From assembly GCA_949152475.1 (NCBI GenBank), contig OX424563.1, forward strand, positions 26,571,001 to 26,635,000: a DNA stretch of 64,000 nt, read 5' to 3'. The notes below the pieces were generated by a model. It was given only the letters and a program-made list of their open reading frames with translations. It did no database searches and was not told the origin of the DNA. The position numbers and the translations under genes are program-made. The DNA is from Terebella lapidaria (taxonomy: Eukaryota; Annelida; Polychaeta; Terebellida; Terebellidae). Positions 9,174 to 40,938 of this stretch are shown one piece after another (position 1 is the first letter of the stretch; every line of letters begins with the position of its first letter).

Positions 9174-9348
9174 AGTCGGCCCTGGTCAGGGTAGCGTGTG
9201 ACGCCAGCAACTCCGTGTGCTACTACCATAGGGATGAATCTACTCGGCTCAGCTACAATAACGCCAAACCGTACTGCACAGAAAATGGCGGTACCCTGCC
9301 AATGTTCGACACGTCTGAAATGGAGACTTGGTTCCAAACCAATGTCGG
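9174..9348 (+). CDS. Receptor A exon: N-terminal half of CTLD
   Basis: Acceptor TACACAG; donor GG|GTACGA, in exact alignment with receptor B. It enters with two bases completing a codon and leaves in phase 2. It encodes SALVRVACDASNSVCYY, then LSYNNAKPYC and the GGTLPMFDTSEMETW block. These are the paired N-terminal cysteines of a long-form CTLD and the conserved Leu-rich strand. The open frame that runs on to 9460 is intronic read-through. Confidence 0.85.
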
Positions 9349-12300
9349 GTACGAACGCGAAAGCTGCAAGAAATTGAAAAAAGAATTCATTAAGGGTCAA
9401 TACATCGATAGTAATTCCGCCACAAGTATCATACACTGCGCCTTCCTCTATATTCAATGAGGATTGAAAATGTGACCGACGGATTAAATGGCATTCATTT
9501 AGTAGTATTAAGGTGCAGTGTATGATACTTGGGCCGTAATCTCTTATTTGTATGGAGTTTATTAATTAATGTGTTGGATATGTATTTTCAGTTCCGTGAT
9601 ACATACACACCCTGCAGCTAGCCGCCGAACGTTATCTGGTCCAATTCTACTGTGTTGTGGGTCAGGTCATATTTATGTTAACGTTCTAATGCCTTCAAAA
9701 GTCCGACACATGGTGTTAACAGGTTAAGAATAACAGTTTCCCAGTAAGTACACTTTACACTTTTACAATCTATTCGATTCCATGTCCGAGGATGTTATTA
9801 AAATGTGTGCATTGAGATTGCAACACTGAGACTCCCGAGTTTGGAGTAAAATGTCTTGGATGGATGGATGGATGCATGTAAACTCTCCTCTATCTGGAGC
9901 ATGAAAAATTAGTATTTTCTATGGAAATTTAGCATATAGGCACAATGGTTCTGTCCGATATTTTGCGTGGTCAATTCATCCGTGATTATGATAGCGTTCT
10001 GAGGCTCGGGTTAACATTCTATTGAGGCTTGAAAGTTATTTCTTACATCACCATATGGAAGAATTTATGGGGTTGAGACTTTTGAGCTTTTAGGTTCATT
10101 GTTTTTACGTAATATGTATAGAACTAACAGAACAGCACTCACATATATTGAAGACTAACTATTATTTGATCCACAGAACGTTATCTAAGACAACAGTACG
10201 ACAGTTCAACAATAAAACAATTGCCATATGTGTACTACACATGTCTTATTGTCACGTGCAGTCCAATCTGTGCATTCAATGTTACATATGGCATGTCACA
10301 ATATTGATCTATACCTAAAATTAGGTACAGAATACATTGAATACGCGAACGATGTTCGTGAAAATCACCAGGGTGTCAACATGCCATTTTTCTCAATATT
10401 GGGCAATAAAATTAAGAAGCAGAGCAATACATACAATTCTAGGGTATTCGGGACATGGAATCCACATGTAGTCGATGCAAGTCCAACAATATGATGAAGG
10501 AAAAACATTTTGTTCCCGTGTATCTTCATATCTGGTGCAATAGAACGTTAACATAAACATGACCTGACCCTCAACACAATAGAATTGGGTCAATTAACGT
10601 TCGGCGGCTAGCTGCAGGGTATACATAAGCACATTCATGTACGCGTTTGACAGAATTTTCGTGAAGGAAGTTCAGAACATTCGGAACTTTACAGAACTTT
10701 TGTATAATGCAAGGAATTGAATGCAATTACTTAAAATATAATATTGTGATTATGTATAATCTACCATATATTATTTCATGGATCAAAGTTGTCAAAAGAA
10801 ATTGTAGAACCAAACCACGTTATTTTTTTTAGCATGATAATGTATATATGTACAGGGATGTCATCGGAGAAACATTGTGGATAGGACTGACCGATTCAAC
10901 CTGGGAGGGCACTTTCCTCTGGACAAGTGGCTCTGCGGTGGCATACAGCAAAAGGATTTCAGGAAATAGCTCCTGGAAAGACTGCGTTCAGCGCCAGCAA
11001 GATGGCACATGGGAAGCTAAATTCTGCTGGACATCCTACTCTGCCGTAGTGTGCATGATGGCAGAAGGTTTGTATAATCTGAACCACTCGGGGTCGGAGT
11101 TGATATCGTTCTATTTCACATATATCTGATATAGTGTCCGTGTTATTGATAATTCGTGGGACGTTAATATGATTTCTAGTCTGAATGTATGTACATATTT
11201 CTAGTTGAAATGACAACAACCACTTTGCAAGAAACTACATCATCTGACTCAACTACAACGACAACGGGTAGCCCAACAACTACAAGCGAAACAACAACAA
11301 CAACAACTGCAACATCAGCACCAACAACGTCAACAACTGTAACTACAGCTGCACATACCACATCTGAAGTTACAACCACAAAAGTAACGTCGTCGACCAT
11401 TGCTGCTGCGAAAACGACAAAGACAGCAGACGTACCTAGTACAACGGATGACTCAACAACGGACACGACAACTGCAAAAACAACTATACCAACAACAGTA
11501 ACGAGTACAGTTGGCGGAATGACGACTACAAAAACAGCCGTACCAACAACAATATCAAGCACAGTTGGCGACGCGACAACTGCAAAAACAACTGTACCAA
11601 AAAGAGTAACAAATTCAGTGGATGAAACGACAACTAGCGAGACAACTGTGACCACAGCAAAGCCAAGCACGACTGCAGGTAGAGCAACAACGGTATTAAC
11701 TGCAAGTACTCAGAGAGAGAATGTATTCACCACACAAATCACACCATCACAGACAATAACAGGAGATATGCAGCCTTCCCCGGATCCAACTCGACATACC
11801 AGTGTGCCAAGCTTGGGCGTAACTACATTGGGTGTCACCCCAACAGAAGACACCTCAACAGTTGCAAGAACCTCGCCGACTTCCATCTCCACAAGCCAAT
11901 ACATCACTCGGGAGGCCAGAACATCGCACGCCGTTTCCTCCACTGACAGCGAGCCGACTACAATGGAGTACCACACTTCAGCCCGTGAAGACCCTGTTAC
12001 CAGACATGAAACTGAGTCCGCCGAACTGCGAATCTCATCCACTCACAGCTCTACGCAAGAGTATAGTATAATATCTACTGGGAAGAGAAGTGTAACCTCG
12101 GATGGAACAGTGGCAGGGATAACTACTACGCAATTAGAGGAATCGTCTACCTCAGAAGCACCACGCCAACTCGATATTGGTGCGTTTATTGTATTTTGAA
12201 TATTTTATCGGACTTGTCAAAAGGTTAATATAGTAGTAGTGGTAGATCGGTACGTAGAGTTGGCAGAAAAATACTTTGGGAAACTGCGAAAGGAACTGTG

Positions 12301-15300
12301 ATTAAATGGGAGATTACAATAGGTTCAAATTCAAAATACTGTGTTCTAACGATCGTACATCTTGTATTTCAGAAAACCGATTGATAATGTGCCCAGAGGT
12401 TCCATCAACAAGAACCACAGAAGTTGTAGGCGTGGGTCGGCGGGTCGGATCTGTGATCACGTTAGTCTGCAGTCTCAACCACGTGTTTCCAGAAGGAGGC
12501 TCCGCGAGATCTCTAGTATGTCTAACATCCGGCAGATGGAGCGCACGAGTGCCACAGTGCACAGGTAACTCAAATGGGCTTGCACATATCAGATGCGTAT
12601 ATATTTTATGCACATGCAGACAATGCATATCGTACTTGCATCGTAAGGTTTAGCCTGATTTTCACTATATCCCGAATATCGGGATCAATATAATTCAAAA
12701 TCTTCTGCGTCCGATAACATATATCAGGACTATCTGTTACTAGCAATTTGACATCTTCGACATTGTATGATGGCTGAATTTATGTTATTGTTCTTCAGCT
12801 GTGACGTGCAGCGCTGTTCCCACGAACGCGCGCATTATGGGTGGCTCAATAGCGCAGAAACCTCCAGATTCTGTTACTGTAGGCGGTTCTTTGAGTTTAA
12901 GTTGTTCTACGAATGAGGAGTTTACTCACGGTGTAAATTCACTACGTACAAGTTGTGTCAGAAAAGATGCGGAGTCATTTTGGACATCTGCAAACTGGAC
13001 ATGTGCAGGTGAGAACGTCATTTGTGGATTGTTAGGTTTAGTTCATTCTTTGATTTTCAGTGAGTTTTCAGTGAGTTCATTATTTTTCGAGGTTTTAATG
13101 TTTAGTTTTTTTTTCTTCAGAAAATATGTAGTTTTCTGAATATATCCACTTGCTCCAGCAACATAAATCAGCCATTGGCAACATAAATCAGCCACGTTAT
13201 TGCTGAAAAAAACCCTCACGTCCTTTACATGTTTTTAATTAAGTACGGTGCCCGCCGCTCCCTCTGACGCTCCACTCATCATTCTCACCCACTGATTACG
13301 TCACTGATATCGGTGCTCAAGTAGTGATGACGTGTGACCCCGGATACAAGCTGGAAGACGGCACAAAGAGCCAGCGGGTTGAGTGTCAGGAGAAAGCACA
13401 GTGGAGTGATATTGGGACGTGTAGAGGTAATGTCAAAGAGTAATGTCTTATGGTTTAAGACAAAAATGCAGCTATTGTGAGACAATGCGTCGAACCTGAA
13501 CGCTACCACGTGTATAAAAATGTTTAAACGTATGATTATGCGTTTGATCTCTTCACCAAAAAAGTAACGCAACAGTATTAAATGCACACCTAACCGTCAA
13601 TTCGTACTATACGAGTTAAGCGTATTTTCTGCAGTTGAAGTATGTCCAAAGCTGACTCCACCGAATCACAGCACCCTTAACACAACTGTCACGGTCTACA
13701 ACACGCACGTAGGAATCGCCTGTCACTCTGGATACCACGTGCCGGGGAAATCAACCAGTGACGTCATATCCTGTCTCGAGGGTGAAATCTGGAGCCGCGC
13801 GCCTTTCGACTGTGAACGTATGCATCAAACCACAGATTTTTGAGTTTGTTTAACATAATTTGTGAGAAAAGTCGTTTACTAACTAATTCGAGAATGAATT
13901 ATATTAAATGATTATCAATGTTATCGTACGCTTTCGACATGTCGTAGATTGTGCGTTTTCGTCCATTCGCAGTGGTGATTTGCGATAATCTTCCGAACCT
14001 GGAGAATATAGCTTCGTCCACTATTGACCGAGTGAATAATTCAGCGCAGTTGTTGTACGGAACCACGGCAACATACAACTGTCTCGAAAGCTTTAGATTC
14101 CAGGACGGCCATGACAGTAAAACTGTCAGCTGTACAGCGACTGCCAGCTGGACAGAAGAGTTACACTCTTGCCAAGGTATTATGGATGAAGTTATATTGT
14201 TGCAGGACCATTCTTCTAAAGATATCTTCGTATCTTAGACACGTCGTGTCTTTTTGCTTTATTATCACATTTTAATTCGAACCCCGATTCACATCATCGT
14301 ATTTTAATGAATTTGTGCTTACAGTAGGAATATTGTCGAGTCTCCATCTACGTCGTAGGAAACTATATCACTTTCCACCAAAGAGCACTGAAAAATTGAC
14401 ATTAAATTTGTGGTCCGTCTCCTGTGTCGTAAATACACTTCACCATAAAACTATCCTTGCACACTAAAAAACACCTTCCTTTACAGAGAACGTATGTACT
14501 CCAGTACCAGACATACCGAACTCCTCGGGGAACAGTTCCCTGGCAGTGTTGAGTTCCGTGGTACGTGTCACGTGTACTCCGGGGTATCAGTTCAGTCCCG
14601 GAGTAACGGCCCTAGACATTCTCTGCGGGGTAAATGGATGGAATGTAACGGGTGGAATGGCTTGCCAGGGTGGGTAATTATTTTAATATTTTCTCTAAAA
14701 ATATCATAGACAGCTGACAATCAAACATGTCAGACATCAACATCTTGGTGTATTAGCTAATGCAAAATAGTAACACCTAGTGAAGTTGTTTGTTACCTAA
14801 TAAGAGTAGATCTAAATTAATTAATACGGATGTCGATAATCTGATGATGAGATTCAAAGCTGTCCGTTTCAGTAAAAAATTGTCCAGTCATCGATGTAGC
14901 TAACAGCACGTTGAATACATCCGCTACCGTATATGGAACATACGCGTTAGTCGCGTGTGACCTTGGATACAGAGTGGAAGGGGAGCATCACGTGACGATC
15001 ATGTGCTTGGAATCCGGCCAATGGGATAGGAGTGTCTCTTGTACACGTGGGTGATCATTATTCTCGATATAACTAGTGGTCACAGCTAAGTGTGTTGAAC
15101 CTCGGAATGGTTGATAAGATTGTTTAATGTCCAAGCTTGAAAAATGAATCTATATGCCGGTATATGTTCGCAGTTAGGTGGAAACCATTGATAAATTATT
15201 TTATGTAAGCCAAAGAAAACCGATCAGAACTGCAATCTATCATTTCTAATTTTTTCCACGCTTTTCGTGTTTCATTGGAACAAACTGGATTAATTCAGCG

Positions 15301-16374
15301 TAATAATTGTCGTTAGGGCCTGCATTTGGTGACAAAAACACCTAGGATGTCGTTTTCATTGTATAGCTGTTGACTGCGGAACGCCTCCTGAGGTTCTAAA
15401 CGCTATGTACGACTCTGGTGATGTGAAAACATACGGCTCCAAATTGATGTACGCCTGTCGACGAGGTTACTGGTTTAGTAGAGGTGTGTTCACTGCCATC
15501 ACTGAGTGTACATCCAGTGGATTCTGGAGCAGTGTTCCCGATTGCACACGTACGCTCGCAACCTGAATAATCATGAAAATGTTTATCCGCCTACTTTGCT
15601 CATTTCTAGGACTAGGCAACATCAAATATTAATGCTTCCAGTTAGCGTGCTATTATGGACAATTACCTGCTTCGAATACACTGTTCTTTCCAGCATTGCA
15701 TTGTGCGTCTATTCCCTACTGGGAGGGGATTGTGCCAGATACCCACGACAACAGTTTCGGTGTCACTGTCAATTATACATGCGACAATAGGACGGTGTTT
15801 AATGACGGCCCGGGGCACAAAGTAGCCACGTGCGGTGACAGGGGAGAGTGGGATCCATCGATACACAGCTGTCTTGGTGAGAGAGAAATATCATTCTTTA
15901 ATACAACGTCGTCATTATGTTTCTCATGTCCCTTTCCGTAACCACTGTCATAATATCAAATCTTCGGAGATGAAAATCGCGCCAGACTGTTGTATCATGA
16001 TTTATCAGTGTGTTTGAGACCGGCTACGTGTATTTTGCGTCATAATGCTGCACACTTACCTCAGACTGTGCTATACATGCATGAAGCAGCCCATATCATT
16101 CAAATAAATTATTGATATATACTCCATGGATTCCGTTCCAGCCATTACCGAAGAACAATACACGATTCCCACCGAAGAAGCGGAAAAGGCCGAACTTGTT
16201 GGAATGGTGGCACTCGGAGTTTCCGCTTCGCTGTTTCTGGTGTTGTTTATCATAGATTTACCAGCTCTGATTGGTCAAACTGTCAGAATGATCAGCAACA
16301 TCAGCCAATCAGAACTAATTGACAGGTTTCGAGTCAAACAAACGGACCAGTTGTCGCGAAGAGTTGAACGGTAA
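9174..16374 (+). CDS. Receptor A: CTLD - mucin - nine sushi - TM protein (13 exons, first exon missing)
   Basis: Type I membrane protein of about 1096 residues plus an unseen signal peptide. Exons: 9174-9348, 10856-11067, 11205-12179, 12373-12564, 12799-13008, 13244-13426, 13635-13817, 13973-14176, 14487-14669, 14873-15046, 15367-15549, 15694-15876, 16142-16374. Every internal boundary is AG/GT, every sushi exon is a multiple of three in phase 1, and every exon has a counterpart in receptor B. Domain order is CTLD, a 325-residue Thr/Ser-rich stalk, nine CCP modules, one helix and a ~45-residue tail. The plan resembles selectins without EGF. Selectins and CCP receptors act in adhesion or complement-like recognition; I infer cell-surface recognition, ligand unknown. 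No frame disruption was seen. The CTLD lacks EPN/QPD and WND motifs, so calcium-dependent sugar binding is doubtful. Confidence 0.85.
9611..10620. mobile_element. ~1-kb DNA element with ~90-bp inverted repeats in the CTLD intron of receptor A
   Basis: The left end ACCCTGCAGCTAGCCGCCGA returns inverted at the right end (TCGGCGGCTAGCTGCAGGGT). Pairing continues for about 90 bases through GGTCAGGTCAT.TTTATGTTAACGTTCTA. Receptor B has no insert at the matching place: its intron is only 333 bases, against about 1.5 kb here, so the insertion postdates the gene duplication. The interior shows no transposase; the 88-codon open frame at 10228-10494 has no recognised domain. Confidence 0.85.
10856..11067 (+). 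CDS. Receptor A exon: C-terminal half of CTLD
   Basis: Acceptor TGTACAG, donor GAAG|GTTTGT, phase 2 to phase 1. It encodes the hallmark ETLWIGLTDSTWEGTFLW, then SWKDCVQRQQDGTWEAKFC and SAVVCM, which supply the remaining core cysteines. GNSS is an N-glycosylation sequon. The EPN/QPD and WND calcium and sugar ligands are not present at their usual places. Confidence 0.9.
11205..12179 (+). CDS. Receptor A exon: Thr/Ser-rich mucin-like stalk
   Basis: One 975-base exon (325 residues), acceptor TTTCTAG, donor TTG|GTGCGT, phase 1-1. More than a third of residues are Thr or Ser, with imperfect repeats of TTAKTTVPTTVTSTVG type at about 11475-11610 and TTTTT runs early on. There are no cysteines. Dense O-glycosylation would make it an extended spacer between the lectin head and the sushi rod. 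The antisense open frame across 11176-11670 is a by-product of ACA/ACT codon use. Confidence 0.88.
12373..12564 (+). CDS. Receptor A exon: sushi domain 1
   Basis: Acceptor ATTTCAG, donor ACAG|GTAACT, phase 1-1, 64 residues. All four sushi cysteines are present (MCPEVP, TLVCSL, SLVCLT, PQCTG), with the Trp in GRWSARV. Receptor B has lost the third Cys and the Trp of this module. Confidence 0.9.
12799..13008 (+). CDS. Receptor A exon: sushi domain 2
   Basis: Acceptor TTCTTCAG, donor GCAG|GTGAGA, phase 1-1, 70 residues. Four cysteines (VTCSAVP, LSLSCST, RTSCVR, NWTCAG) and SFWTSANW at the conserved Trp. This is the longest and among the most diverged modules relative to receptor B. Confidence 0.9.
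13244..13426 (+). CDS. Receptor A exon: sushi domain 3
   Basis: Acceptor TTAATTAAG (weaker than in receptor B, TGTCTAG), donor AGAG|GTAATG, phase 1-1, 61 residues. Cysteines in RCPPLP, VVMTCDPGY, VECQEK, GTCRG; Trp in AQWSD. DNA is almost identical to receptor B from 13244 to the end while the flanking introns differ. Confidence 0.88.
13635..13817 (+). CDS. Receptor A exon: sushi domain 4
   Basis: Acceptor TCTGCAG, donor GAAC|GTATGC, phase 1-1, 61 residues. Cysteines in EVCPKL, GIACHSGY, ISCLEG, FDCE; Trp in EIWSRA. NHSTLNTTVTV holds N-glycosylation sequons. Confidence 0.9.
13973..14176 (+). CDS. Receptor A exon: sushi domain 5
   Basis: Acceptor ATTCGCAG, donor CAAG|GTATTA, phase 1-1, 68 residues. 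Cysteines in VICDNLP, TYNCLES, VSCTAT, HSCQG; Trp in SWTEEL. A longer spacer (SSTIDRVNNSAQLLYG) is shared with receptor B. Confidence 0.9.
14487..14669 (+). CDS. Receptor A exon: sushi domain 6
   Basis: Acceptor TTTACAG, donor CAGG|GTGGGT, phase 1-1, chosen over the nearby GTAATT because it keeps phase and matches receptor B. Cysteines in VCTPVP, VTCTPGY, ILCGVN, MACQG; Trp in GWNVT. The first ~120 bases differ from receptor B at only about two sites. NSSGNSS and NVT are sequons. Confidence 0.88.
14873..15046 (+). CDS. Receptor A exon: sushi domain 7
   Basis: Acceptor CGTTTCAG, donor ACAC|GTGGGT, phase 1-1, 58 residues. Cysteines in KNCPVI, LVACDLGY, IMCLES, VSCT; Trp in GQWDRS. Conserved YGTYALV strand. 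Confidence 0.9.
15367..15549 (+). CDS. Receptor A exon: sushi domain 8
   Basis: Acceptor TGTATAG, donor ACAC|GTACGC, phase 1-1, 61 residues. Cysteines in VDCGTPP, MYACRRGYW, TECTSS, PDCT; Trp in GFWSSV. Confidence 0.9.
15694..15876 (+). CDS. Receptor A exon: sushi domain 9
   Basis: Acceptor CTTTCCAG, donor CTTG|GTGAGA, phase 1-1, 61 residues. Cysteines in LHCASIP, NYTCDN, ATCGDRG, HSCLG; Trp in GEWDPSI. NYT is a sequon. Nearly identical to receptor B sushi 9. Confidence 0.9.
16142..16374 (+). CDS. Receptor A last exon: transmembrane helix and cytoplasmic tail
   Basis: Acceptor TTCCGTTCCAG, stop TAA at 16372-16374. A short acidic juxtamembrane stretch (PTEEAEKAE) precedes the helix LVGMVALGVSASLFLVLFII. 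The tail starts DLPALIGQTVRMISNISQS and then becomes basic. The DLPALIGQ...RM.SNISQS block is nearly unchanged in receptor B, whereas the distal tail is not, so it is probably functional. No ITAM, ITIM or kinase domain is seen. Confidence 0.9.
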
Positions 16375-16680
16375 TGATCCCGGCATAACATTTGCACCCT
16401 GCATTTCATAGAACACATTTTGCTCAATGCTTCATATACCTGCAGTTTCTGCTGATGCGCTAAAAAAATATTAGCAATTTTTGATGTCCACAAAGCTTGA
16501 TCCTTAAATCGTACGTTGATGTTTGCAAAACTTTTATGCTATGCATCTACGGTAACCTACATGTCCAATGTATAAATGTATTGTAGGAACGTAGATAGCT
16601 AAAACTACGTTAGCTAGTAATACGATTCATATATACTGTATGGGTTTGAACGAAAAGTATATTATTTGATGACAATCGGA

Positions 16681-16686
16681 AATAAA
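16681..16686 (+). terminator. Candidate polyadenylation signal of receptor A
   Basis: AATAAA about 307 bases past the stop, followed within 30 bases by a GT-rich stretch (TTGTTGTTATTGTTTG). I saw no stronger signal between the stop and this site. Confidence 0.55.
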
Positions 16687-17313: not shown

Positions 17314-17319
17314 TTCGAA

Positions 17320-17615: not shown

Positions 17616-19859
17616 AAAAAAAATAACTTCACTTTTTTGTGGCACGAACGGGGCTCTATACCCATCGGATAATATAGATTATGAACATTCGTTCTGCCTA
17701 ATGGATTAGACAAGATAACGTTCTCTGCAATATGTTGAAAGAAATGAAATGTATAATGGTCTGAACCTTGTATAAATTGAAATTTTACAAGTCATTTGTC
17801 GAAGACTGAATGACCTTTCGAGTGATAAAAGTCATCTCTTCTGGAACGAAACACTGAATTACATCAGAATTGGTACTATTACATGTAACAATAATTCTGT
17901 AGGACCTTTTGTGTCACTGGAATATATGGATAGGATATTATATATAATACAGTGCGAGGAATCTATGTACAGTTGTCATAGACAACACTGCAGTCTCCAA
18001 AAGATCTTTTGATATCTGATTAACTATTCTTTGGTTAATTCGACGCATTTTCGGGTGGCACCTCAGGGGTAAACTGAGAGCTCAGTGTCATCACTTGTAA
18101 AACAAAAGTCTGCTCTTATTCTGCCCTTCAGTGCTATCAAAGTAAACACTGTGTCTTCAACAATAATGGCCATCAATGGAACTGGTTGGTTAATTATTTA
18201 AACGATTCAATACATGGCCCATGACAGGCATTCTGATGCAGTGTAAACGATTGTGAGCTATTCTGAGCATGCATAAATGTCATACTGCACGACCCTATTT
18301 CTTCAAGTCATCCGTCTCTAATTCCATCCGCGGTGATCATGATTAATACAATCTATCCCATTACTGTAAAGCGGTGTGCTGTTTTGCAATGTGAATATTT
18401 ATTATTCATTGGGCAATGAATGCGTGGTGAATGTCTCCATTTGTTTCTACGCTGTTTCCTTCACATGCTCTCCATGTGATTTTCTGCTAGTTTAACAGCC
18501 AGCAGAACGATCTTGGCACAGGCGTATTGTTCAGTCAGCTGAGATTCCACGTTATCAGTTCCACGTCACACCATCATCATGCTAGGAAGAATAGGCTTGG
18601 AGGGTATTTGGAACACACCCATTCACATTATGTTACATGGCATTAAGTGTACTCAGAAAAAAGGTACATCATTTATAGAATTATTTATAGTTATCTCCAA
18701 AACGTTTCATTTGTCGAACCACCGAGTAGATAGAGTGAGTCTGATATACTGAAATATTAATCATGCATGAGAATTTCAAACTGCAATTGTACATACAATG
18801 TAATATTAAATTACATTTAGTATTGAAATTGAGCCGAGGCCATACCGGACCGTGTTTTAAATTGTTTTGTAATTGGGCCATAACCATGATAACGGACCCT
18901 GTTTTGTTCGCTCAGAAATGAAGTTTCCCACAGTTCAGTGAATAACGGGGAACGTTTGTCTGTACGTTACAGTATTGTGATACAGGTCTCGGGGTATCCC
19001 TCAGGTGCATGCGGTGAGCAGAATGATTGCTCAGTTGGGGATTGTGTATGTTTCTAGGGATAGGCCTCGGGGCTCTAGTCACTTCTAGCCATGCTTTACT
19101 ACGAGTCCATTTTCAGTAAAAGGATCAGGTCCAAGATCCTGGCCTTGTTCTGTATATCTTGCCTGGCTTTGGACACAGATTTATCAGGGTATTTTTAACC
19201 GTAAAATCGGTGCGTTTTATCTCTGAGTTTTTCCTGGCCCGCTTGGTATATCAGACCTGGCGATTTTAGTTGCACATTTCGTCGACGTTCTCTGTACTAA
19301 TATATACATACGCATGTATCCGTATACTCTGTCTGTCCCGGCACGTCCAATAAACGACTCGACAGCGTCTGGCTAATTGCAAATGATTGTTGTTATCATT
19401 TCGTATAGTTAAGACTACTTAAAGTCATATTAGCAAGGTACCATTATATGTTTTTATTCCTGTCCAGATGAAGCTATTGTGGACATTTGGTGATAAAATA
19501 GATGATCGCGTTAATTGGTAATTAATAACAGCGACATGTCATCGAGTATACTGAGCCAGTATTACCCCCCCCCCCCATGCATGCCAATGAAAAAAATAAC
19601 TTCGGCAGTCTCCGTAATCGTGACGTCAGATGAGGCAGAATGTGCCTTGATGGCTGGCCAAAAACGTAAAATACGTGATCAGCTCAAAGATGGAAAACCA
19701 CACAAAAATGCATGAGATTCAAAAGAAAACACACTAAAACCAGCAAATACTGGATATCCTGCAGTTCAACAAACCTCCGTTCCGGGTGAATAAATAGTAC
19801 TGATTCTAAATATCAAGATGAGAAATGCCACGATGCCACCATCTCACCCGCTCGCTTGA
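17616..19859 (+). other. Intergenic; old duplicate of DNA downstream of receptor B
   Basis: About 17870-18160 matches 41145-41410 (shared words include CTACCTTTTGTGT-like, AATTCGACG.ATTTTCGGG and AAAAGTCTGCTCTTAT). About 18300-18420 matches 43185-43300, and 18490-18790 matches 43385-43690 and 45005-45100 weakly. No coding match is visible, so this is retained flank of the receptor duplication. A C-run is at 19565-19577. Confidence 0.6.
18888..18919 (+). repeat. Short match to the PLE-2 3' tail
   Basis: GATAACGGACCCTGTTTTGT followed by TCGCTC matches the PLE-2 tail at about 28195-28222 with about one or two mismatches. Too short to show how it arrived. Confidence 0.4.
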
Positions 19860-20645: not shown

Positions 20646-20649
20646 ATGA

Positions 20650-21925: not shown

Positions 21926-21995
21926 ATGAAAATGGATACGATAAGACTGGATATACAGCTCACATTGCTCCTAACGAGTCATATGTTGACAACAG
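21926..21995 (+). CDS. Signal-peptide first exon, copy 1 (candidate for receptor B)
   Basis: ATG opens a 23-residue peptide with a short hydrophobic core (DIQLTLLLTSHMLTT) and ends ACAG|GTAAAT in phase 1, exactly the phase required by the CTLD exons at 34378 and 9174. An internal second ATG six bases on matches the only ATG of copy 2. The longer open frame from 21800 is not needed. It would be joined over a ~12.4-kb intron. It could instead be a relic of a lost third receptor copy. Confidence 0.6.
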
Positions 21996-26097: not shown

Positions 26098-28017
26098 CTA
26101 GATTTGCTTGGCGTTCGTGCGTCCATTGTGGATAAAGCACATTTTTCAAACAAGCAATGTTTGACCTTATTTTCAAACTTCACTGACACGGCTGCTCCAT
26201 CTGTATCCTACTCATATACCAAATCTGTTGCTTCCAAGATTTTCAACTACAAACAAACATTGAATGATTTGGATATTGATGATCTCTTACATAACCCACC
26301 CTCCTGCACTTGCATTAACTCTCCGTTCATACACGATCCAGTTGGGCATGTTATTTCAGGCGACCTCAATATAGTGGAGAATGAATCATTGAGAGACATT
26401 TTGTCCAAAGGTCCCAAATATAGAGAGCCCACGTCGTTTTCAGGGAGATACAATTTTAAGTTAATCATGGATGCAGTTGAGGAGCATGCCAGAAAATGGA
26501 CAAAGCGAGAAAAGGCAGAAACTGATTCTCTGTCAGAATGGGTCAAACAGATTAGGTCATTGGTAAACAAACGCATCAATGTTTTGTCAAAGTCAGTTAG
26601 TACTAAATATAGCTCTGTCTTCAATGATCCCGTGGTTACTAATAGTTTGTTGAAACTTCAAGAAAGGTTCGTCATTGTCCCTGCAGATAAAGCTTCTAAT
26701 AATGTTGTTTTTGTTTGTAAAGCATACTATATACAGTGCCTGTTTGACGAACTGGGTATTGCCAACAATACTAATCCCAATAGTACATACCAAGCCATTA
26801 CCGTGCCCAAACAGGATATCTTATCAAATCATTTGTCTGTATTGCATTCGTTTGGTATTACTACCTCATGTAAAGATTCTAATCTACCGAACTTATATTG
26901 GATCCCAAAGTTGCACAAAAATCCACACAAACAAAGATATATTTCAGGTTCAGCATCATGTTCTACCAAAGCCCTTTCTAAAATATTAACTACTATATTG
27001 TCTAAAATTAAACAGGGTCTCCAAAAGTACTCTGAAACCATCTATTCTAGAAGTGGTATAAACCAAATGTGGATATTAAAAAATTCCAAATCTTTATTGG
27101 AATATCTACATGCGCACACACTTTCAAAAGTAACGTCTATCAAAACATTTGATTTCTCCACTTTGTACACAACTATACCTCATTCTGAACTGAAATCTCA
27201 GCTTAAAAAACTAATCAATAATTCATTTTTCTCTAAAAAGGGACAACGTCGGTACCACTATATTGTAGTTAAATATAATACCGCTTATTTTGTTAAAGGC
27301 GACTCTGATGCCCCATACAAATATACTGAAATAGATGTGGTAAATATGGTTAATTTTCTGATTGATAATATTTTTGTGGAATTTGGTGGTCGAATATTTC
27401 AACAAACTATTGGTATTCCCATGGGTACAAACTGTGCACCATTATTGGCAGACCTGTTTTTATACTCATATGAATCAGATTTTATCCAACATTTACAAAG
27501 AGGAGGTTCTAAGAAACTAACATGTAATTTTAATTTCACTTTCCGATACATAGATGATGTATTGTCGCTAAATAATCCCAAGTTTGGTGATTATTTGGAT
27601 GTCATATATCCTAAGGAACTTGAAATTAAGGATACTACAGAATCCGCTAATTTTTCCAACTATCTAGACCTGAGGTTGGAGATTGATAATGATTCTAACC
27701 TGTCAACTAGATTATATGACAAACGTGATGATTTCAATTTTTCCATAGTCAATTTCCCTTTTCTAAGCAGCAACATTCCTATGTCACCGGCATATGGTGT
27801 GTTTGTTTCTCAACTTATACGCTATTCCAGAGCTAGTTGCAAATATGAGGACTTTATCTATCGAAGTGCCCAGCTAGTCTCTAAACTGCTACGACAAGGA
27901 TATGTTTTACCAAGACTTATCGCTGCGTTTAAGAAATTCTATGGACGTCATCATGATCTGGTTGATAAATACAGCAAATCCATGTCTGCCATGCAACTAG
28001 ATCTATTTTCATGTTAA
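26098..28017 (+). CDS. PLE-2 reverse transcriptase protein
   Basis: About 639 residues, open from a TAA at 26095-26097. The N-terminal part has a Cys pair (PPSCTCINSPF) and GKFNFKL-like SGRYNFKLIMDAVEEHA. RT motifs in PLE order: VIVPADKASNNVVFV, LYWIPKLHKNPHKQRYI, SIKTFDFSTLYTTIP (motif A), TIGIPMGTNCAPLLADLF (motif B), FTFRYIDDVLSLNNP (motif C) and SNYLDLRLEID. The tail (SPAYGVFVSQLIRYSRASC ... KKFYGRHHDLVDKYSKS) replaces GIY-YIG. RT proteins with this tail are common unnamed ORFs in marine animal genomes, as I recall. Placing it with endonuclease-lacking PLEs rests on motif order. The true start is unknown, since the first internal Met lies inside the conserved region. Confidence 0.8.
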   Translation, partial: LDLLGVRASIVDKAHFSNKQCLTLFSNFTDTAAPSVSYSYTKSVASKIFNYKQTLNDLDIDDLLHNPPSCTCINSPFIHDPVGHVISGDLNIVENESLRDILSKGPKYREPTSFSGRYNFKLIMDAVEEHARKWTKREKAETDSLSEWVKQIRSLVNKRINVLSKSVSTKYSSVFNDPVVTNSLLKLQERFVIVPADKASNNVVFVCKAYYIQCLFDELGIANNTNPNSTYQAITVPKQDILSNHLSVLHSFGITTSCKDSNLPNLYWIPKLHKNPHKQRYISGSASCSTKALSKILTTILSKIKQGLQKYSETIYSRSGINQMWILKNSKSLLEYLHAHTLSKVTSIKTFDFSTLYTTIPHSELKSQLKKLINNSFFSKKGQRRYHYIVVKYNTAYFVKGDSDAPYKYTEIDVVNMVNFLIDNIFVEFGGRIFQQTIGIPMGTNCAPLLADLFLYSYESDFIQHLQRGGSKKLTCNFNFTFRYIDDVLSLNNPKFGDYLDVIYPKELEIKDTTESANFSNYLDLRLEIDNDSNLSTRLYDKRDDFNFSIVNFPFLSSNIPMSPAYGVFVSQLIRYSRASCKYEDFIYRSAQLVSKLLRQGYVLPRLIAAFKKFYGRHHDLVDKYSKSMSAMQLDLFSC

Positions 28018-28257: not shown

Positions 28258-28259
28258 CC

Positions 28260-29470: not shown

Positions 29471-29474
29471 TTCC

Positions 29475-32469: not shown

Positions 32470-33490
32470 CGGTGGCTGATATGTGACATCTGAATTTTTT
32501 TTTGCAGGACACCAATTTAAAACAAAGCACAATATTCTATTCGTGAATAAAACTATTCTATTCGCAAATAAACCATTCTATTCACGAATAAAACGTTCTA
32601 TTCGCGAATAAAACATTCTATTTGTGAATAAAACATTTTATTCGCGAATAAAACTATTCTATCTGTGAATAAAACATTATATTCGCGAATAAAACATTCT
32701 ATTCGTGAATAAAACATTCTATTCGCGAATAAAACGTTCTATTCTCAAATAAAACGTTCTATTCGCGAATAAAACATTCTATTCGCGAATAAAACATTCT
32801 ATTCGCGAATAAAACGTTCTATTCGCGAATAAAACGTTCTATTCGCGAATAATACTCAATAAGTTACAATTGCTATGAGTAACAAAACTTCTATACATCA
32901 CAGTGACACATCTCGAATATAATGTTTTATTCGCGAATAGAATGTTTTATTCGCAAATAGAATAGTTTTATTCGCGAATAGAACGTTTTATTCGCGAATA
33001 GAACGTTTTATTCGCGAATAGAACGTTTTATTCGCAAATAGAATAGCTTTATTCGCGAATAGAACGTTTTATTCGTGAATAGAATGTTTTATTCGCGAAT
33101 AGAATGTTTTAGTCGTGAATAGAACGTTTTATTCGCAAATAGAAGTTTTATTTGTGAATAGAACGTTTTATTCGTGAATAGAATGTTTTATTCGCGAATA
33201 TAACGTTTTATTCGTGAATAGAATGTTTTATTCGCGAATAGAACGTTTTATTCGCAAATAGAATAGTTTTATTCGCGAATAGAATGTTTTATTCGTGAAT
33301 AGAATGTTTTATTCGCGAATAGGACGTTTTATTCGCGAATAGAACGTTTTATTCACGAATAGAACGTTTCATTCACGAATAGAACGTTTTATTCGCGAAT
33401 AGAATGCTTTTATTCACGAATAGAATATTTAGCTATTCTTTTAAATTGGTGTCCTGCAAACAAAATTTAGATGTCACATATCAGCCACCG
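32470..33490. mobile_element. Fold-back element with opposed arrays of a 20-bp palindromic repeat
   Basis: ~49-bp terminal inverted repeats (CGGTGGCTGATATGTGACAT ... ATGTCACATATCAGCCACCG) flanked by TA on both sides. Inside, about 16 copies of ATTCTATTCGCGAATAAAAC run on the left and about 25 copies of its reverse complement run on the right, around a ~70-base unique spacer. Each unit carries the palindrome TTCGCGAA. The whole can pair into a very long hairpin. No open frame. TA flanks suggest a Tc1/mariner-type insertion preference. Confidence 0.9.
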
Positions 33491-33493
33491 TAG

Positions 33494-34377: not shown

Positions 34378-34546
34378 ATTCGGCTTTGACGAAAGTGGGC
34401 TGTGACGTCACACACTCCGTATGCTATTACGAAAACGATATCGATCTCAGTTACGACAACGCCTTGTCCCTTTGTACATCCGTGGGAGCAAACCTTCCAA
34501 CATTTCTAACGTCTGAAATGGAGGAATCGTACAAGGCAAACGTCAG
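34378..34546 (+). CDS. Receptor B exon: N-terminal half of CTLD
   Basis: Acceptor CACACAG, donor CAG|GTATGA, enters with two bases and leaves in phase 2, as in receptor A. It encodes SALTKVGCDVTHSVCYY, LSYDNALSLC and GANLPTFLTSEMEESY. The two N-terminal cysteines of a long-form CTLD are kept. Confidence 0.87.
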
Positions 34547-37500
34547 GTATGACAGGAGGGTGGCACACCGGAGATGATCGGTAAGGTTGTCAGTAAAAAA
34601 AAAAACTGATATATATATATATATATATATTCAAAAAGGAATGATATTATCGGACATAACCATCTCATAAGGTGAGCAACAAGTTGAGTTTCAATAAATT
34701 GTTTGATTGGTTGTTGGAACATTGTTTTCTGATTCCAGCACATTTACAGTAGAATCAACTACACTGTACACACTGTCGGCCGATATTTCCGGATAGAAAA
34801 ATAGTTGGTCGGGTTCAGCTCCTAATTCAAAGTTGTTTAATGTTTTGTATCGGGGTAAAGATTGATACATACATTGCAGAAATACAGACCGTTGGTTGAC
34901 ATGGATAGGGCTGACCGATCGAGCTGAAGAAAACGTATTTGTTTGGGATATGGATGGATCACACCTCAGTTTTCCAAGAGATATCAGCCGAAACAACGAG
35001 CGTCGAAACTGTGTTCAAAACAGGCAGGACGGTGCTTGGAGAACACACAATTGCGATGCAGAAGCACGAGTCCTGTGCATGTTTTCATGTAAGTGATAAC
35101 ACTGTAATACACGAATATTTTCAATCGCATAACCCAAGTTCCATTCATTGATACCGTGCTATGTACTGTAAAAAAACACACACATATCTAAGCATAAATA
35201 TATATGGACATTGAGAAAACATGCAATTTTTTGCTGGAGAAAAATTATTGTGAATGAAAATTTGCATGCGCTCTTCACGTTCATAAATATAGATGAAACA
35301 ACCACGTCGGCACTTGACGCTAGCACCTTGAAAGATTTGGTAACAACTACACAGGCAGCTTCTCCGACAACTCAAAGCGAAGGTAAAACCTCAACTCAAA
35401 CTGTACCAGCTCCGCCGACGAAGTCACCTTCTGCTGCCTTACCTGTACGGAAGACAAGAACAACTGTGGCATCAACGCAGGCAATAGCCACTTCCTCGAA
35501 ATATACTGCTACAGCCATGACGACATTGGCGCCATCCGCAACTGACAAAGAAACACATGGCAGGCCAACCCAGGAAGCTACAGAAAACGTGTCAACTGAG
35601 AGAGATGTGTTATTTACAAGCACGTTAGATATTGCAACGACAACTGTGACGAAATCACCAGACACTGCTTCACAAAGCACTGCCATCCGGGACAACGACA
35701 GAAGTGTTGTCCCACTAACTACCAGTGAGACTGTCACAAAGAGACCGACGACAGACTATTTAACGACAGGGCTATCAGATGACATGTCATCGACTGGAAT
35801 GCCAGCCGGAGATACTCAAACTGAGTTGTCAACCGCAGATTCTCCACCAATCATAACCACTTTAAATGCAGAAGCATCATCCGTAGATAGCTCCACGCGT
35901 GGTAAGCAGTTCTCCACAACCATGGACACAACGACCACCGAAGTCACTTCTACTACTAGTATTGATCAACATCATTCCATTGTCCAACGAAGTCCAACAA
36001 GTGATACGCCCCTTATAACAGTTAATGAAGGGACAGTACTCAGTGAATATTCATCCACGAGTCAACCTAGCGGTATTATACAAACGAGTAATTTGCCAGC
36101 GTTAATGGTTCCCACCACTGTCCGAAGTACGACTGATGACATGGGCACCAACATGAAACAGATTCCTACCACTACAGAATCAAAGATTGAAGAAGGTATA
36201 CTAGTATACTCTTGTGATTTGTGCGATGATTCAATTTTGGTGCATGTATATAGAGAGACGAAGCCACAACGTTCCTGATTGCAAATAATGAAATGATTTA
36301 CACTTATAATCCGCCATCGGGTTCTGAACAACTCAAAGTGATATTGCTCATTAGAAGAAAATGATATGCTTTTGTCCAGAATAACGTCGGTAATCTATAA
36401 TTAACTAACTAGAAAGGACATTGCTCATCCATAGCCTACTTGTGTGTGATCGTGTGAAGATGCACTGTTTGACATCCAGTGGTGCGATCGATGCTTCGCG
36501 AGTACTATCAACAATCATAGAAACTCATTGATTGAGTGTTGCATAACTGTATGAGCTGCGACTGATATGAAATCTAAGGATTACAAAATGTGACAAAAAA
36601 ACATGAAAAGTGTGTAGAACATTGTGAATGCATTGATGCAAATGAATTAAATGCATCATCTTATTCACAGAAGACCACCTAGTAATGTGTCCCGAGGTTC
36701 CATCCACAAGAACCACACAAGTTGTGGGCGTGGGTCGGCGGGTCGGATCTGTGATCACGTTAGTCTGCAGTCTCGACCACGTGTTTCCAGAAGGAGGCTC
36801 TGTACGAGTGCCACGGTGCGAAGGTATGATGCTCTCCCGTTGTGATGACTTTTGAATAGAACTGAATTATTTTGGTGGTATATAACATATTGATCGACGT
36901 TAAAATCATGGCACAAATCATTTTTCCACTCACCATTTCGAGAGAGTATAAATAAATAGTTAACGATACAATTCTGTTCAACTTCCAGCTGTGGTCTGTA
37001 CAAACGTACCTACAAATGCTCAGGTATCAATCGTTGGGAAGCCTCAGAATCCTCCTGATATTACAAATGTTGGCGACATGATACGACTGCACTGTGATGG
37101 TGGCCAGCGTCGGTTCAACTTTCCACATGGTATTGACGTGTTAGAAACAAAGTGTACACGGGAACGAGAGGAGTCCTTCTGGACTTCACCCAATTGGACA
37201 TGTGCAGGTGAAATAATTTTAATATATTTTTTTTGTAAATGACCGGATATCAGTTGTAAAACCCACTACATTCCTGACCATTCGTCTCCGCATTTTCACA
37301 TTATTTAAGGTTTGTTTTTGGCATCATCATTATCCGATGATATTGATAATAGAATCATATGTATTTCGAGCTAAGATTGTTTTCTTCACGTGTCTAGTGC
37401 GGTGCCCGCCGCTCCCTCTGACGCTCCACTCATCCTTCTCACCCATTGGTTACGTCACTGATATTGGTGCTCAAGTAGTGATGACGTGTGGCCCCGGATA

Positions 37501-40500
37501 CAAGCTGGAAGACGGCACGAAGAGTCAGCTGGTTGAGTGTCAGAGGAAAGCGCAGTGGAGTGATATCGGGACATGTAGAGGTGCGGAGAGTGAAACCGTA
37601 TACAAAAAACGATTTTTTTTCATTACAGACCTATTAGTGCAGATCAACAGAGGAAAGAAACACAACTGAACACTCTCTTAACACAACCATCACCATACAC
37701 CTCTTCATGTATTTATATGTTATCATGTGAAACTGCATTTTTCTTCAGTCGAAGTATGTCCCAAACTTACTACGCCGATGCACAGCTTACTGAACACCAC
37801 TGTGACAGTGTTCGGCACGCATGTGAATATCACGTGTCTCTCGGGATACCATATGCTTGGGATAGGAACGAGTGACGTCATTTCCTGTATGCAAGGAGAG
37901 TTATGGAGTCACACAACGACGGATTGTGAACGTACGTTTGCACGAAACTGGTGGTAGAATCTGTGCAAGTTATACAAGGGCTCTATTGTATTTCATACTC
38001 TAATTGGTTACAGTTGTGATTTGCGATGATTTACCGAGCTTGGATAATGTAGACTCGCCTACCATCGACCGAGTGAACAATTCAGCGCATTTTTTGTACG
38101 GAACCACGGCATCGTACGACTGTCTCGATAGCTTTAGATTCCCAGACGGTCACGACAGTAAAACTGTCAGCTGCACAGCCACTGGGAGCTGGACAGAAAC
38201 ACTGCACTCCTGCCAAGGTATGGCAAAGTAATCTCAACGTATTTCCTCAGCCTTGTCCCAAATGGATTTCCGATTGTTCAAGGTTATTCTCAATGGTTCA
38301 ATTTGGTGGCATTGTGGAACTCGGAAACTAAACCTGCTGCAAAACGTGTGACGAGGTCTAATTCTCATATATTCCCTAACTTTGTCTATTCCTGAACCCA
38401 ACGTAGATTGCTCCCAAATAGATTTTAAAAATTTGCAGTCACGTCAAATCATATGTGATATTTCATTCTCTCACATCTATTATCTACAGAAAACGTATGT
38501 ACCCCAGTACCAGACATACCGAACTCCTCGGGGAACAGTTCCCTGGCAGTGCTGAGTTCCGTGGTACGTGTCACGTGTACTCCGGGGTATCAGTTCAGTC
38601 CCGAAGTAACGGCCGTGGACATTCACTGCGGAGTAGATGGTTGGAATGTAACGAGTGGAATGGCTTGCCATGGTAGGAAGAATGATAAATGTAGATCTGA
38701 TAAAAGGCGCCGAGAGGATTCTGTTATTTATAAAAGTCGTTAGTGGATAGTTTGTAATAGAATATTTGTTTCAGTCAATGTTTTCTTTCAGTTAAGAACT
38801 GTCTAGCACTAAGCGTACCTCGGAGCACGCTGAACACCACGGATACTGCTTATGGGACATATGCGTTGGTCTCCTGTGATATTGGATACAGAGTGCATGG
38901 ACGTCAATACGTCACGGTCACGTGTCTTGAATCTGGCCAATGGGATCAGACCGTGGAGTGTACCCGTAGGTATATTCAAGTATTTAGAATGTACCTGCAA
39001 ATAGCAATAAATACTTGTGTGTCCGGAAAAAAAATCATAGGGTGTTTAAATGATACAAACGTTTCAGGGGGCCGATTAATATTCCAAGAACATTGTGTTC
39101 ATTTTTATGTGAAAAAGATGGTCCCAATAAGTAAGCATGCTCCCATTATTGTGTGTGTATGGTATCACTTGCAATCGTTTGTGGATAAGCCCTCTTCTGT
39201 GTGTATTTTGCATCAAATGAACGAATATGGGGATAATGCAAGTGTTTTTTTAGATGGAGAAAGATCAACTCTATTCCCCGAAAATAGTTCATTGAGTCGA
39301 GTATGTCAAACATGCTAATGTCACTGGAAACAAAACATTCAAATCATGTTCAGATGTAGAAAGTCCATGACGGGCCCCGTATGATGGGACTAAAATCAAC
39401 TCTGAGTAGCTTGCCAGCTCGGATTTGAGGACGTCAAATTACATTGTATATAAAAAGTCATACTGAGCAGGGCGATGTGGCATGAATGTGTGGAGGTCAT
39501 ATTTTAAAAATTAGACAAGGCAGTAAAGTGTTTATTATTGTGGGTATATATGAACGTTTTCGTCTTGTTTCAGCTGTTGATTGTGGGTCACCTCCAGAAG
39601 CACTCAACGCCATGTATGACTCTGGGGTGGCGAGAACATACCAGTCCAAACTGGTGTACACCTGTCGTCAAGGTTACTGGTTTGGTAGAGGTGTGTTCAC
39701 TGCCAGGAGTGAATGTACGTCAAGCGGATTATGGAGTGCAGTTCCTGGTTGCACACGTGAGTCAATTTTATATTCATGATCAGGACATAGAGTTATCAAA
39801 TTCCAAAACTACATTTCGAGATCATTGACCTATGGGCCTCGTCATAATTTGTTTGTCAGAAGGTGTGCCCTAAAATGCGTCCAGTATTATTAGTTTGAAA
39901 CCAAAAATGGGTAAATCGAACGAATGCATTAACGAGAATCAGTACTATCGTATGTTGTGCTTGCTGTGGAATGGATAGCTGTCGTGGTGAATTTCGTTTC
40001 AGTATCGTACGATGATGGAAGGACAAACAAGTGGAAGTGAAAACACGTCTATAGTGTTTTCACTTCTTTTATATAATGATGCTATTTAGAAGCGGACATT
40101 GGCCTCATAATCGTGTAAAATAATAAAGGTGCGAACTCCATACACACCACTATGCACTGTGCACACTTTTCAGCTCTGCATTGTGCGTCCATTCCCTACT
40201 GGGAGGGAATTGTGCCAGATACCCACGACAACAGTTTCGGTGTCACTGTGAATTATACATGTGACAATAGGACGGTGTTTAGTGACGGCCCAGGGTACAA
40301 AGTAGCCACGTGCGGTGACAGGGGAGAGTGGGATCCATCGATACACAGTTGTCTGGGTAGGCAATATATTGTCGTGGATGTACGTGTTGCTGTGGTAGAA
40401 AACACGTTCTTTATTCAGATTTGTGTGTCTTGGTATCAAAATAGTTAACTCATTTCCCATTTTCTATAACAAGTATTTGAGAAAACCTACAATCTACAGC

Positions 40501-40938
40501 AAACACAAGTATGCAGGTGTATGTTTCAAACGGTAATTGTATATATATATGAATTTCAGTATCGAAAATCATCATATAAATTTACTCGTTCTCAGTAGAA
40601 TACACAATGCCACTAAATATACGGGCAGAGTATTGTCACAAACTACATTTGTAAGTTTAATCTTGCTTTAAGCGATCCCTACACCACCATCCGTGATACC
40701 ACCAGAAGAAGCGGAAAACGCGGAGACAGTTGGCATGGTAACACTTGGAGTATGTGGAACTCTACTTGTGCTATTGGTAGTGATTGATCTCCCAGCGCTG
40801 ATTGGCCAACTTGCACGCATGCTCAGTAACATCAGCCAATCAGGATGTGTCAATAGATTCCGCGTCATACGAACACACCACAAGGTTTCCCGTGGATCTC
40901 ACTTGAAATATGCGGAAACTCGGAAACATACAGACTGA
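34378..40938 (+). CDS. Receptor B: CTLD - mucin - nine sushi - TM protein (13 exons plus candidate signal exon)
   Basis: Paralogue of receptor A with the same exon plan: 34378-34546, 34880-35088, 35293-36195, 36671-36823, 36989-37207, 37398-37580, 37749-37931, 38014-38217, 38490-38672, 38792-38965, 39574-39756, 40174-40356, 40673-40938. All boundaries are AG/GT and in phase; about 1065 residues without leader. The likely first exon is 23881-23944 or 21926-21995, giving a 10-12 kb first intron filled with PLE-2 and fold-back DNA. The mucin and tail ends are strongly diverged from A, while several sushi exons are almost identical. Sushi 1 has lost 13 residues including its third Cys and Trp. 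No stop or frame loss is seen, so it appears functional. Cell-surface adhesion or pathogen recognition is inferred from domains only. Confidence 0.85.
34602..34631. repeat. (AT)n microsatellite
   Basis: About 13 TA/AT dinucleotides in the CTLD intron of receptor B. Confidence 0.8.
34880..35088 (+). CDS. Receptor B exon: C-terminal half of CTLD
   Basis: Acceptor ATTGCAG, donor TCAT|GTAAGT, phase 2 to phase 1. It encodes RWLTWIGLTDRAEENVFVW, then RRNCVQNRQDGAWRTHNC and ARVLCM. Core cysteines and WIGL are kept; EPN/QPD is absent, as in receptor A. Confidence 0.9.
35293..36195 (+). CDS. Receptor B exon: Thr/Ser-rich mucin-like stalk
   Basis: One 903-base exon (301 residues), acceptor AATATAG, donor GAAG|GTATAC, phase 1-1. 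Thr/Ser-rich without cysteines. Only the composition and the first E-x-T-T residues resemble receptor A; the repeats differ, so the stalk has evolved by turnover of low-complexity sequence. The open frame upstream of 35293 is intron. Confidence 0.87.
36196..36670 (+). other. Intron of receptor B, nothing recognised
   Basis: Intron between the mucin exon and sushi 1. AT-rich, no repeat or hidden exon seen. Confidence 0.5.
36671..36823 (+). CDS. Receptor B exon: sushi domain 1, shortened
   Basis: Acceptor TTATTCACAG, donor GAAG|GTATGA, phase 1-1, 51 residues against 64 in receptor A. From VMCPEVPSTRTT to FPEGGS it is almost identical to receptor A. Then a net 39 bases are missing in frame, removing the SLVCLTSGRW stretch with the third Cys and the core Trp. 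The last Cys (PRCEG) remains, leaving three cysteines, so one disulphide of the fold cannot form. Confidence 0.88.
36989..37207 (+). CDS. Receptor B exon: sushi domain 2
   Basis: Acceptor ACTTCCAG, donor GCAG|GTGAAA, phase 1-1, 73 residues. Cysteines in VVCTNVP, RLHCDGG, TKCTRE, NWTCAG; Trp in SFWTSPNW. Diverged from receptor A except at core positions. Confidence 0.9.
37398..37580 (+). CDS. Receptor B exon: sushi domain 3
   Basis: Acceptor TGTCTAG, donor AGAG|GTGCGG, phase 1-1, 61 residues. Cysteines in RCPPLP, MTCGPGY, VECQRK, GTCRG; Trp in AQWSD. About ten base differences from receptor A over the exon. Confidence 0.9.
37749..37931 (+). CDS. Receptor B exon: sushi domain 4
   Basis: Acceptor TTCTTCAG, donor GAAC|GTACGT, phase 1-1, 61 residues. 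Cysteines in EVCPKL, NITCLSGY, ISCMQG, TDCE; Trp in ELWSHT. Clearly more diverged from A than sushi 3 and 6. Confidence 0.9.
38014..38217 (+). CDS. Receptor B exon: sushi domain 5
   Basis: Acceptor GGTTACAG, donor CAAG|GTATGG, phase 1-1, 68 residues. Cysteines in VICDDLP, SYDCLDS, VSCTAT, HSCQG; Trp in SWTETL. Shares the TIDRVNNSA.FLYGT spacer with receptor A. Confidence 0.9.
38490..38672 (+). CDS. Receptor B exon: sushi domain 6
   Basis: Acceptor TCTACAG, donor CATG|GTAGGA, phase 1-1, 61 residues. Cysteines in VCTPVP, VTCTPGY, IHCGVD, MACHG; Trp in GWNVTS. Its first ~120 bases are nearly identical to receptor A even at synonymous positions. Confidence 0.9.
38792..38965 (+). CDS. Receptor B exon: sushi domain 7
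   Basis: Acceptor TTTCTTTCAG, donor ACCC|GTAGGT, phase 1-1, 58 residues. Cysteines in KNCLAL, VSCDIGY, VTCLES, VECT; Trp in GQWDQT. Confidence 0.9.
38966..39573 (+). other. Intron of receptor B, nothing recognised
   Basis: Long intron between sushi 7 and 8. The open frame running from the exon to 39318 is read-through without domain content. Confidence 0.5.
39574..39756 (+). CDS. Receptor B exon: sushi domain 8
   Basis: Acceptor TTGTTTCAG, donor ACAC|GTGAGT, phase 1-1, 61 residues. Cysteines in VDCGSPP, VYTCRQGYW, SECTSS, PGCT; Trp in GLWSAV. Confidence 0.9.
40174..40356 (+). CDS. Receptor B exon: sushi domain 9
   Basis: Acceptor CTTTTCAG, donor CTGG|GTAGGC, phase 1-1, 61 residues. Cysteines in LHCASIP, NYTCDN, ATCGDRG, HSCLG; Trp in GEWDPSI. 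Only a handful of base differences from receptor A. Confidence 0.9.
40673..40938 (+). CDS. Receptor B last exon: transmembrane helix and cytoplasmic tail
   Basis: Acceptor CTTGCTTTAAG, stop TGA at 40936-40938. PPEEAENAE precedes the helix TVGMVTLGVCGTLLVLLVVI, then DLPALIGQLARMLSNISQS, the same block as in receptor A. The distal tail (VIRTHHKVSRGSHLKYAE) is basic and differs from A. No AATAAA was found within 600 bases downstream; ATTAAA near 41457 is the nearest alternative. Confidence 0.9.

Follow-up and report, generated by a model that had tools for sequence, protein, structure and literature searches.

What kind of protein do the paired lectin-sushi genes of the annelid Terebella lapidaria encode, and have all their exons aged together? 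The question is raised by a 64,000-nucleotide stretch of genomic DNA (assembly GCA_949152475.1, contig OX424563.1, forward-strand positions 26,571,001 to 26,635,000; hereafter the window, with coordinates counted from its first letter), in which self-comparison reveals a collinear gene pair, copy 1 at 9174-16374 and copy 2 at 34378-40938. The reading favoured here, at a probability of roughly three in four, is that copies 1 and 2 are clustered members of a receptor family, predicted to be type I membrane adhesion or recognition proteins, and that the third, sixth and ninth of their complement control protein (CCP, or sushi) modules have been homogenised through gene conversion that stayed within exons.

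Each copy comprises 13 exons in the same order: two for a C-type lectin-like domain (CTLD), one rich in Thr and Ser, nine for CCPs, and one for a transmembrane (TM) helix and tail. In both copies the acceptors are AG in 13/13 cases and the donors GT in 12/12, and the junctions are phase 1 throughout, except for the CTLD-internal junction, which is phase 2. The splice sites were picked by eye, and the independent evidence for them is the agreement of sites and phases between the copies, together with the 13-exon open frames: the joined frame is open over 1096 codons in copy 1, with the first codon filled in by a placeholder base, and over 1093 amino acids (aa) in copy 2, signal exon included. 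The two paralogues with 13 matched exons in identical phases that a first-pass annotation had described are thus borne out, as are the limits it gave: 9174, where the first CTLD exon of copy 1 begins, and 40938, the last base of the copy 2 stop codon. The exons are as follows (nt, nucleotides).

9174-9348, plus strand: copy 1 CTLD exon a, phase 1 in and phase 2 out, Lectin_C
10856-11067, plus strand: copy 1 CTLD exon b, without EPN, QPD or WND
11205-12179, plus strand: copy 1 mucin-like exon, 324 aa, Thr+Ser 47%, no Cys, 54/108-nt repeats
12373-15876, plus strand: copy 1 CCP1 to CCP9, all with four Cys and one or more Trp
12373-12564, 12799-13008, 13244-13426, plus strand: copy 1 CCP1, CCP2 and CCP3 exons
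13635-13817, 13973-14176, 14487-14669, plus strand: copy 1 CCP4, CCP5 and CCP6 exons
14873-15046, 15367-15549, 15694-15876, plus strand: copy 1 CCP7, CCP8 and CCP9 exons
16142-16374, plus strand: copy 1 TM and cytoplasmic tail exon, with stop; AATAAA downstream near 16.68 kb
34378-34546, plus strand: copy 2 CTLD exon a
34880-35088, plus strand: copy 2 CTLD exon b, without EPN, QPD or WND
35293-36195, plus strand: copy 2 mucin-like exon, 300 aa, Thr+Ser 38%, no Cys, tandem repeat not detected
36671-36823, plus strand: copy 2 CCP1, three Cys, no Trp
36989-40356, plus strand: copy 2 CCP2 to CCP9
36989-37207, 37398-37580, 37749-37931, 38014-38217, plus strand: copy 2 CCP2, CCP3, CCP4 and CCP5 exons
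38490-38672, 38792-38965, 39574-39756, 40174-40356, plus strand: copy 2 CCP6, CCP7, CCP8 and CCP9 exons
40673-40938, plus strand: copy 2 TM and cytoplasmic tail exon, with stop

Both gene models of the annotated tandem pair are supported, but the pair is not alone. A genome-wide search (761.6 Mb in 438 contigs) with the CTLD of copy 2 returned nine matches at E<=0.001, falling into six loci, all on contig C9, and these six loci of the same exon order, five open and one broken, lie within 265 kb, four of them to either side of the pair. Exon mapping covered a 264-kb span (200 kb plus the window, with 26.510-26.561 Mb left out) and placed the further loci as follows.

C9, 26.388-26.398 Mb, minus strand: left-hand copy
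C9, 26.410-26.423 Mb, minus strand: left-hand copy
C9, 26.479-26.488 Mb, minus strand: left-hand copy
C9, 26.645-26.652 Mb, minus strand: sixth locus, broken

The two CTLD exons (CTLDa and CTLDb) and CCP1-9 are collinear in 6/6 loci. The sixth locus carries a frame break at the CTLD junction, a truncated CCP4 and a frameshifted CCP8. The homology search missed the TM exon of the 26.41-Mb locus, which was recognised in translation, with its acceptor in the family phase; the joined model of this copy ends before that exon. A D-x-P motif lies just past the helix in the TM exons of all five open copies.

The exons of copies 1 and 2 are not all of one age. Synonymous divergence (dS) between them runs from low in CCP6 (0.12), CCP3 (0.19) and CCP9 (0.24), through intermediate in CCP1 (0.38), CCP5 (0.61) and CCP8 (0.84), to high in the TM exon (1.44), CCP4 (1.50), CCP7 (1.56) and CTLDa (1.78), with CTLDb and CCP2 saturated, and this heterogeneity is significant (chi-square 125.7, 11 degrees of freedom, p = 1.3e-21). 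The introns of the same two genes align over 72 of 3911 bases, and BLASTN similarity stops 2-8 nt beyond the edges of CCP3, CCP6 and CCP9. Copy 2 and the sixth locus, taken as a control pair, align over 2440 of 3349 intron bases and show dS of 0.08-0.14 in seven of the nine exons measured, CTLDa (0.56) and CCP5 (0.35) being higher. The pattern of the window pair returns when copy 1 is set against the sixth locus, with CCP3 at 0.09, CCP6 and CCP9 both at 0.24, CCP2 saturated, and 99 of 3911 intron bases aligned. When the 120-nt flanks of CCP1, CCP3, CCP5, CCP6 and CCP9 were scored by gapped alignment against shuffles, the 99% shuffle level was exceeded by 0/10 for copies 1 and 2 and by 0/10 for copy 1 and the sixth locus, as against 9/10 in the control pair. 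An ungapped comparison of 40-nt flanks was dropped, as it separated the control pair poorly (10/18 flanks at 15-42%). The rates omit the mucin exons in all pairs and the TM exon of the 26.41-Mb copy, as well as three broken exons of the sixth locus (CTLDb, CCP4 and CCP8).

Low dS in CCP3, CCP6 and CCP9 beside introns that cannot be aligned points to exon-restricted gene conversion as the simplest account, the conversion appearing limited to exons, as the only parts in which the two copies still match. Under this account CCP3, CCP6 and CCP9, and CCP1 to a lesser degree, would have been homogenised between the window genes, while the CTLD, CCP2, CCP4, CCP7 and TM exons would have been left to diverge. 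A spliced template is a possible, if conjectural, route for such events, and the phrase "exon-specific gene conversion" reportedly occurs in two papers (PMC2651877 and PMC4278454), so that the process is already in print elsewhere. The same low values could instead reflect constraint on synonymous sites or an error of assembly, and strong purifying selection in CCP9 (nonsynonymous divergence, dN, of 0.01 against dS of 0.24) speaks for constraint. Against the three left-hand copies, however, copy 1 is saturated or nearly so in CCP3, CCP6 and CCP9 (proportion of synonymous differences, pS, 0.66-0.89), which argues against synonymous-site constraint, and exon edges are not where an assembly collapse would be expected to end; constraint or misassembly is therefore an improbable source of the pattern.

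Profile searches of the joined models put Lectin_C (E 5e-12 and 1.4e-11 in copies 1 and 2) and Sushi (E 4.2e-43 and 3.7e-35) well over the Pfam cut-off, and with a TM helix read from the sequence the selectin-like order of lectin, CCP rod and TM holds. Eight sushi stretches of copy 1 and seven of copy 2 pass Pfam individually. By cysteine count copy 1 has the nine CCPs that had been annotated for each gene, all of them complete, and copy 2 has eight and a damaged CCP1, in which a 39-nt in-frame deletion takes out one Cys and the Trp; copy 1 and the sixth locus carry the longer form. Across the five open copies, 44 of 45 CCPs contain exactly four Cys along with one or more Trp, the exception being CCP1 of copy 2, and a PDB sequence search with the CCPs places CR1, CR2 and DAF on top. 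Lectin_C is likewise above cut-off in 5/5 open copies, whose CTLDs share six invariant cysteines and an invariant W-x-G. EPN and WND are motifs of the calcium-dependent sugar site, and EPN, QPD and WND are all absent from the five open CTLDs; the ligand is therefore unlikely to be a sugar bound through calcium in the classical way, in agreement with the first-pass annotation, which had found the two window CTLDs to lack EPN and QPD. PDB searches with the CTLD place LY75/CD205 and mannose-receptor-family chains, which belong to multi-CTLD receptors without CCPs, on top among the matches listed (the best 60 of 82 and the best 60 of 130), and no selectin occurs among those matches.

Between lectin and CCPs, where an exon of some 300 Thr/Ser-rich residues had been reported, a mucin-like exon is present in 5/5 open copies, at 924, 571, 137, 324 and 300 aa, the last two lengths being those of copies 1 and 2. 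It always lies between CTLDb and CCP1, is flanked by phase 1 on either side, has a Thr+Ser content of 38-50% and contains no Cys; the sixth locus retains a Thr/Ser-rich frame of 222 codons. Tandem repeats occur in four of the five exons (copy 2 is without them), and their units differ while their periods are divisible by three, so that the length of the stalk, which is predicted to be O-glycosylated, probably alters by in-frame repeat turnover. The ten introns flanking the mucin exons of the five open copies hold no frame of at least 25 aa with six Cys, the maximum being five, and there is thus no sign of an EGF exon, as the first description also had it. The CTLD and CCP exons could also be imagined as separate adjoining genes. 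This arrangement is hardly credible and was rejected, given the exon order and phases common to the open copies and the shortness of the introns around the mucin exon (137 and 193 nt in copy 1; down to 95 nt and 82 nt in two of the left-hand copies).

The 5' end of copy 2 has two candidate exons, whose signal function is predicted.

21926-21995, plus strand: candidate signal-peptide exon A of copy 2, an ATG exon ending in phase 1 at GT
23881-23944, plus strand: candidate signal-peptide exon B of copy 2, an ATG exon with a phase-1 donor

Their end phase matches the phase-1 start of the copy 2 CTLD. The segments around them are 74% identical across about 1 kb, forming a duplicated segment, and a segment similar to that of exon A is found upstream of the sixth locus. 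The repeat at 21.8-24.6 kb had also been considered as a domain exon; this was ruled out, the repeat being the duplicated segment in which a short ATG exon with a phase-1 donor is embedded. A de novo scan found no signal exon for copy 1 and is uninformative, having missed the known candidates too. The unseen signal exon of copy 1, the 39-nt deletion in CCP1 of copy 2 and the broken state of the nearby sixth locus would all suit a pair of decaying pseudogenes. Each copy nevertheless retains 13 open exons, and dN is below dS in every exon of the pair with a computable dS, which leaves decay slightly harder to credit than constraint or misassembly.

Several points weigh against a family of intact receptors homogenised exon by exon. 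The intermediate dS of CCP1, CCP5 and CCP8 forms a gradient rather than two clean classes, and equal rates are rejected in all nine pairs tested (p<0.005; 1.3e-3 in the control pair and 6e-4 to 5e-3 between copy 1 and the left-hand copies). The chi-square alone therefore cannot single out conversion, and the left-hand copies look uneven too (CCP4 at 0.55 in one pair, CCP8 at 0.52 in another); the weight of the case lies in the size of the dS range and in the intron and flank controls. Divergence from the left-hand copies was taken for copy 1, and all divergence comparisons lie within one genome. The gene models are built on genomic DNA; the damage to CCP1 of copy 2 may be a sign of decay; copy 1, with no signal exon found, could be 5'-truncated; and the putative signal peptides are just modestly hydrophobic, both having been missed by the filter of the de novo scan.

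The view that no standard family has this order did not hold up. Drosophila Furrowed and CG9095 are described as combining an F-type lectin domain, a CTLD, CCPs and a TM helix, and the CTLD of CG9095 as without canonical sugar-site residues, in passages of PMC5712786; insect CTL-X proteins likewise join CTLD, CCPs and TM in the relevant passages of PMC10341621 and PMC7379682, with TcCTL16 placing one CCP before and three after its lectin domain (PMC10341621). As there described, these proteins resemble the cluster in uniting a CTLD and CCPs with a TM helix on one chain, with no EGF, whereas an F-type lectin domain belongs to Furrowed and CG9095, and a six-locus array and a mucin exon to the cluster. 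The passages of PMC5712786 and PMC10341621 on Furrowed, CG9095 and TcCTL16 mention no mucin exon, and a mucin exon of graded lengths within a lectin-CCP-TM layout was not found in the open-licence literature searched. The layout thus appears to have precedents, from which the cluster would differ in its mucin exon and in the F-type lectin domain not being detected among the candidates scored. That the genes are Furrowed orthologues, epithelial adhesion and planar-polarity proteins that acquired a low-complexity exon, would fit the combination of CTLD, CCPs and TM in print (passages of PMC5712786, PMC8226959 and PMC10341621). The F-type lectin domain of Furrowed counts against it: among 150 of 243 candidates scored, PF22633 has no match inside the cluster and at least 38 genome-wide, the nearest about 0.6 Mb away. 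Six diverging tandem copies would also be a poor fit to a conserved polarity gene, and Furrowed orthology, a likeness judged by description, is unlikely, though it is the strongest of the rivals weighed here.

From the selectins, which carry a short tail, the cluster differs in being without EGF and EPN/WND and in its inserted mucin exon. SELE, SELL and SELP are otherwise described as tandem genes for lectin, CCP repeats and TM (passages of PMC514892 and PMC5820395), and share with the cluster an N-terminal CTLD, CCP repeats, a single TM helix (read from the sequence in the cluster) and tandem arrangement. Bivalve 'P-selectin' type A genes of Sinonovacula and Mercenaria, compared by description, are also CCP-rich, some with CLECT, and mostly in tandem arrays; the passages of PMC9484242 on them, unlike the present account of the cluster, mention no mucin exon or exon-wise conversion.

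Relatives of the cluster occur elsewhere in the genome. On contig C14 at 0.52 Mb (locus L028) lie, in order, a partial CCP5 (51%), CCP6 (45%), another CCP, CCP8 (42%), CCP9 (40%) and a TM exon (38%), and at 24.33 Mb of C14 matches resembling CCP5, CCP6 and CCP9 follow on the 3' side of a Lectin_C match in the same orientation; in this genome the six-locus cluster thus seems to belong to an older family. A 2664-codon open frame full of sushi matches lies at C3 27.595-27.604 Mb, and extra TM-exon/tail matches outside the gene models lie at C9:26471608-26471793, 26643925-26644047 and 26644700-26644822.

Within the window, the flanks downstream of the two copies (17869-18217 and 41145-41479) have a 75% identical stretch in common, so that the duplicated unit reaches beyond the stop codons. 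Two distinct reverse-transcriptase frames lie at 842-3153 and 26098-28017 (RVT_1, E 7e-12 and 1e-7). After the first comes a GIY-YIG-like frame scoring 21.8 bits, just below the 22.6-bit cut-off, and the two together look Penelope-like; the second sits between the signal-exon candidates and the CTLD of copy 2. A 20-bp tandem array of about 44 copies (32538-33425) lies upstream of the copy 2 CTLD, a 1362-bp tandem duplication of 99.8% identity (42337-45055) downstream of copy 2, and two tandem arrays of 338-bp period at 46991-47902 and 51796-53174.

The predicted chain would run from a signal peptide through a CTLD without sugar-site motifs, a variable mucin-like stalk and nine CCPs to a TM helix and short tail. 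As we infer membrane topology, ligand type and function, the CTLD at the tip, kept off the membrane by the stalk and CCP rod, would have a protein or a non-classical glycan as its ligand, and the proteins would most likely act as cell-surface adhesion or recognition receptors, immune or epithelial. A bolder proposal, about as improbable as constraint or misassembly, is a polymorphic receptor complex for self/non-self or partner recognition, in which head and mucin, possibly its own ligand, share one chain, stalks of 137-924 aa grade the reach, conversion shuffles CCPs while heads diversify, and CCP3, CCP6 and CCP9 are homogenised contact or spacing modules. On the favoured reading of clustered adhesion or recognition receptors, the cluster would form a natural receptor series in which the same lectin head and nine-module rod are combined with stalk lengths differing almost sevenfold, and would provide a clear case of tandem-gene homogenisation that halts at exon borders. 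It may thus be usable for testing the evolution of surface-receptor reach, and for asking whether exon-limited conversion needs just diverged introns or an intronless template.

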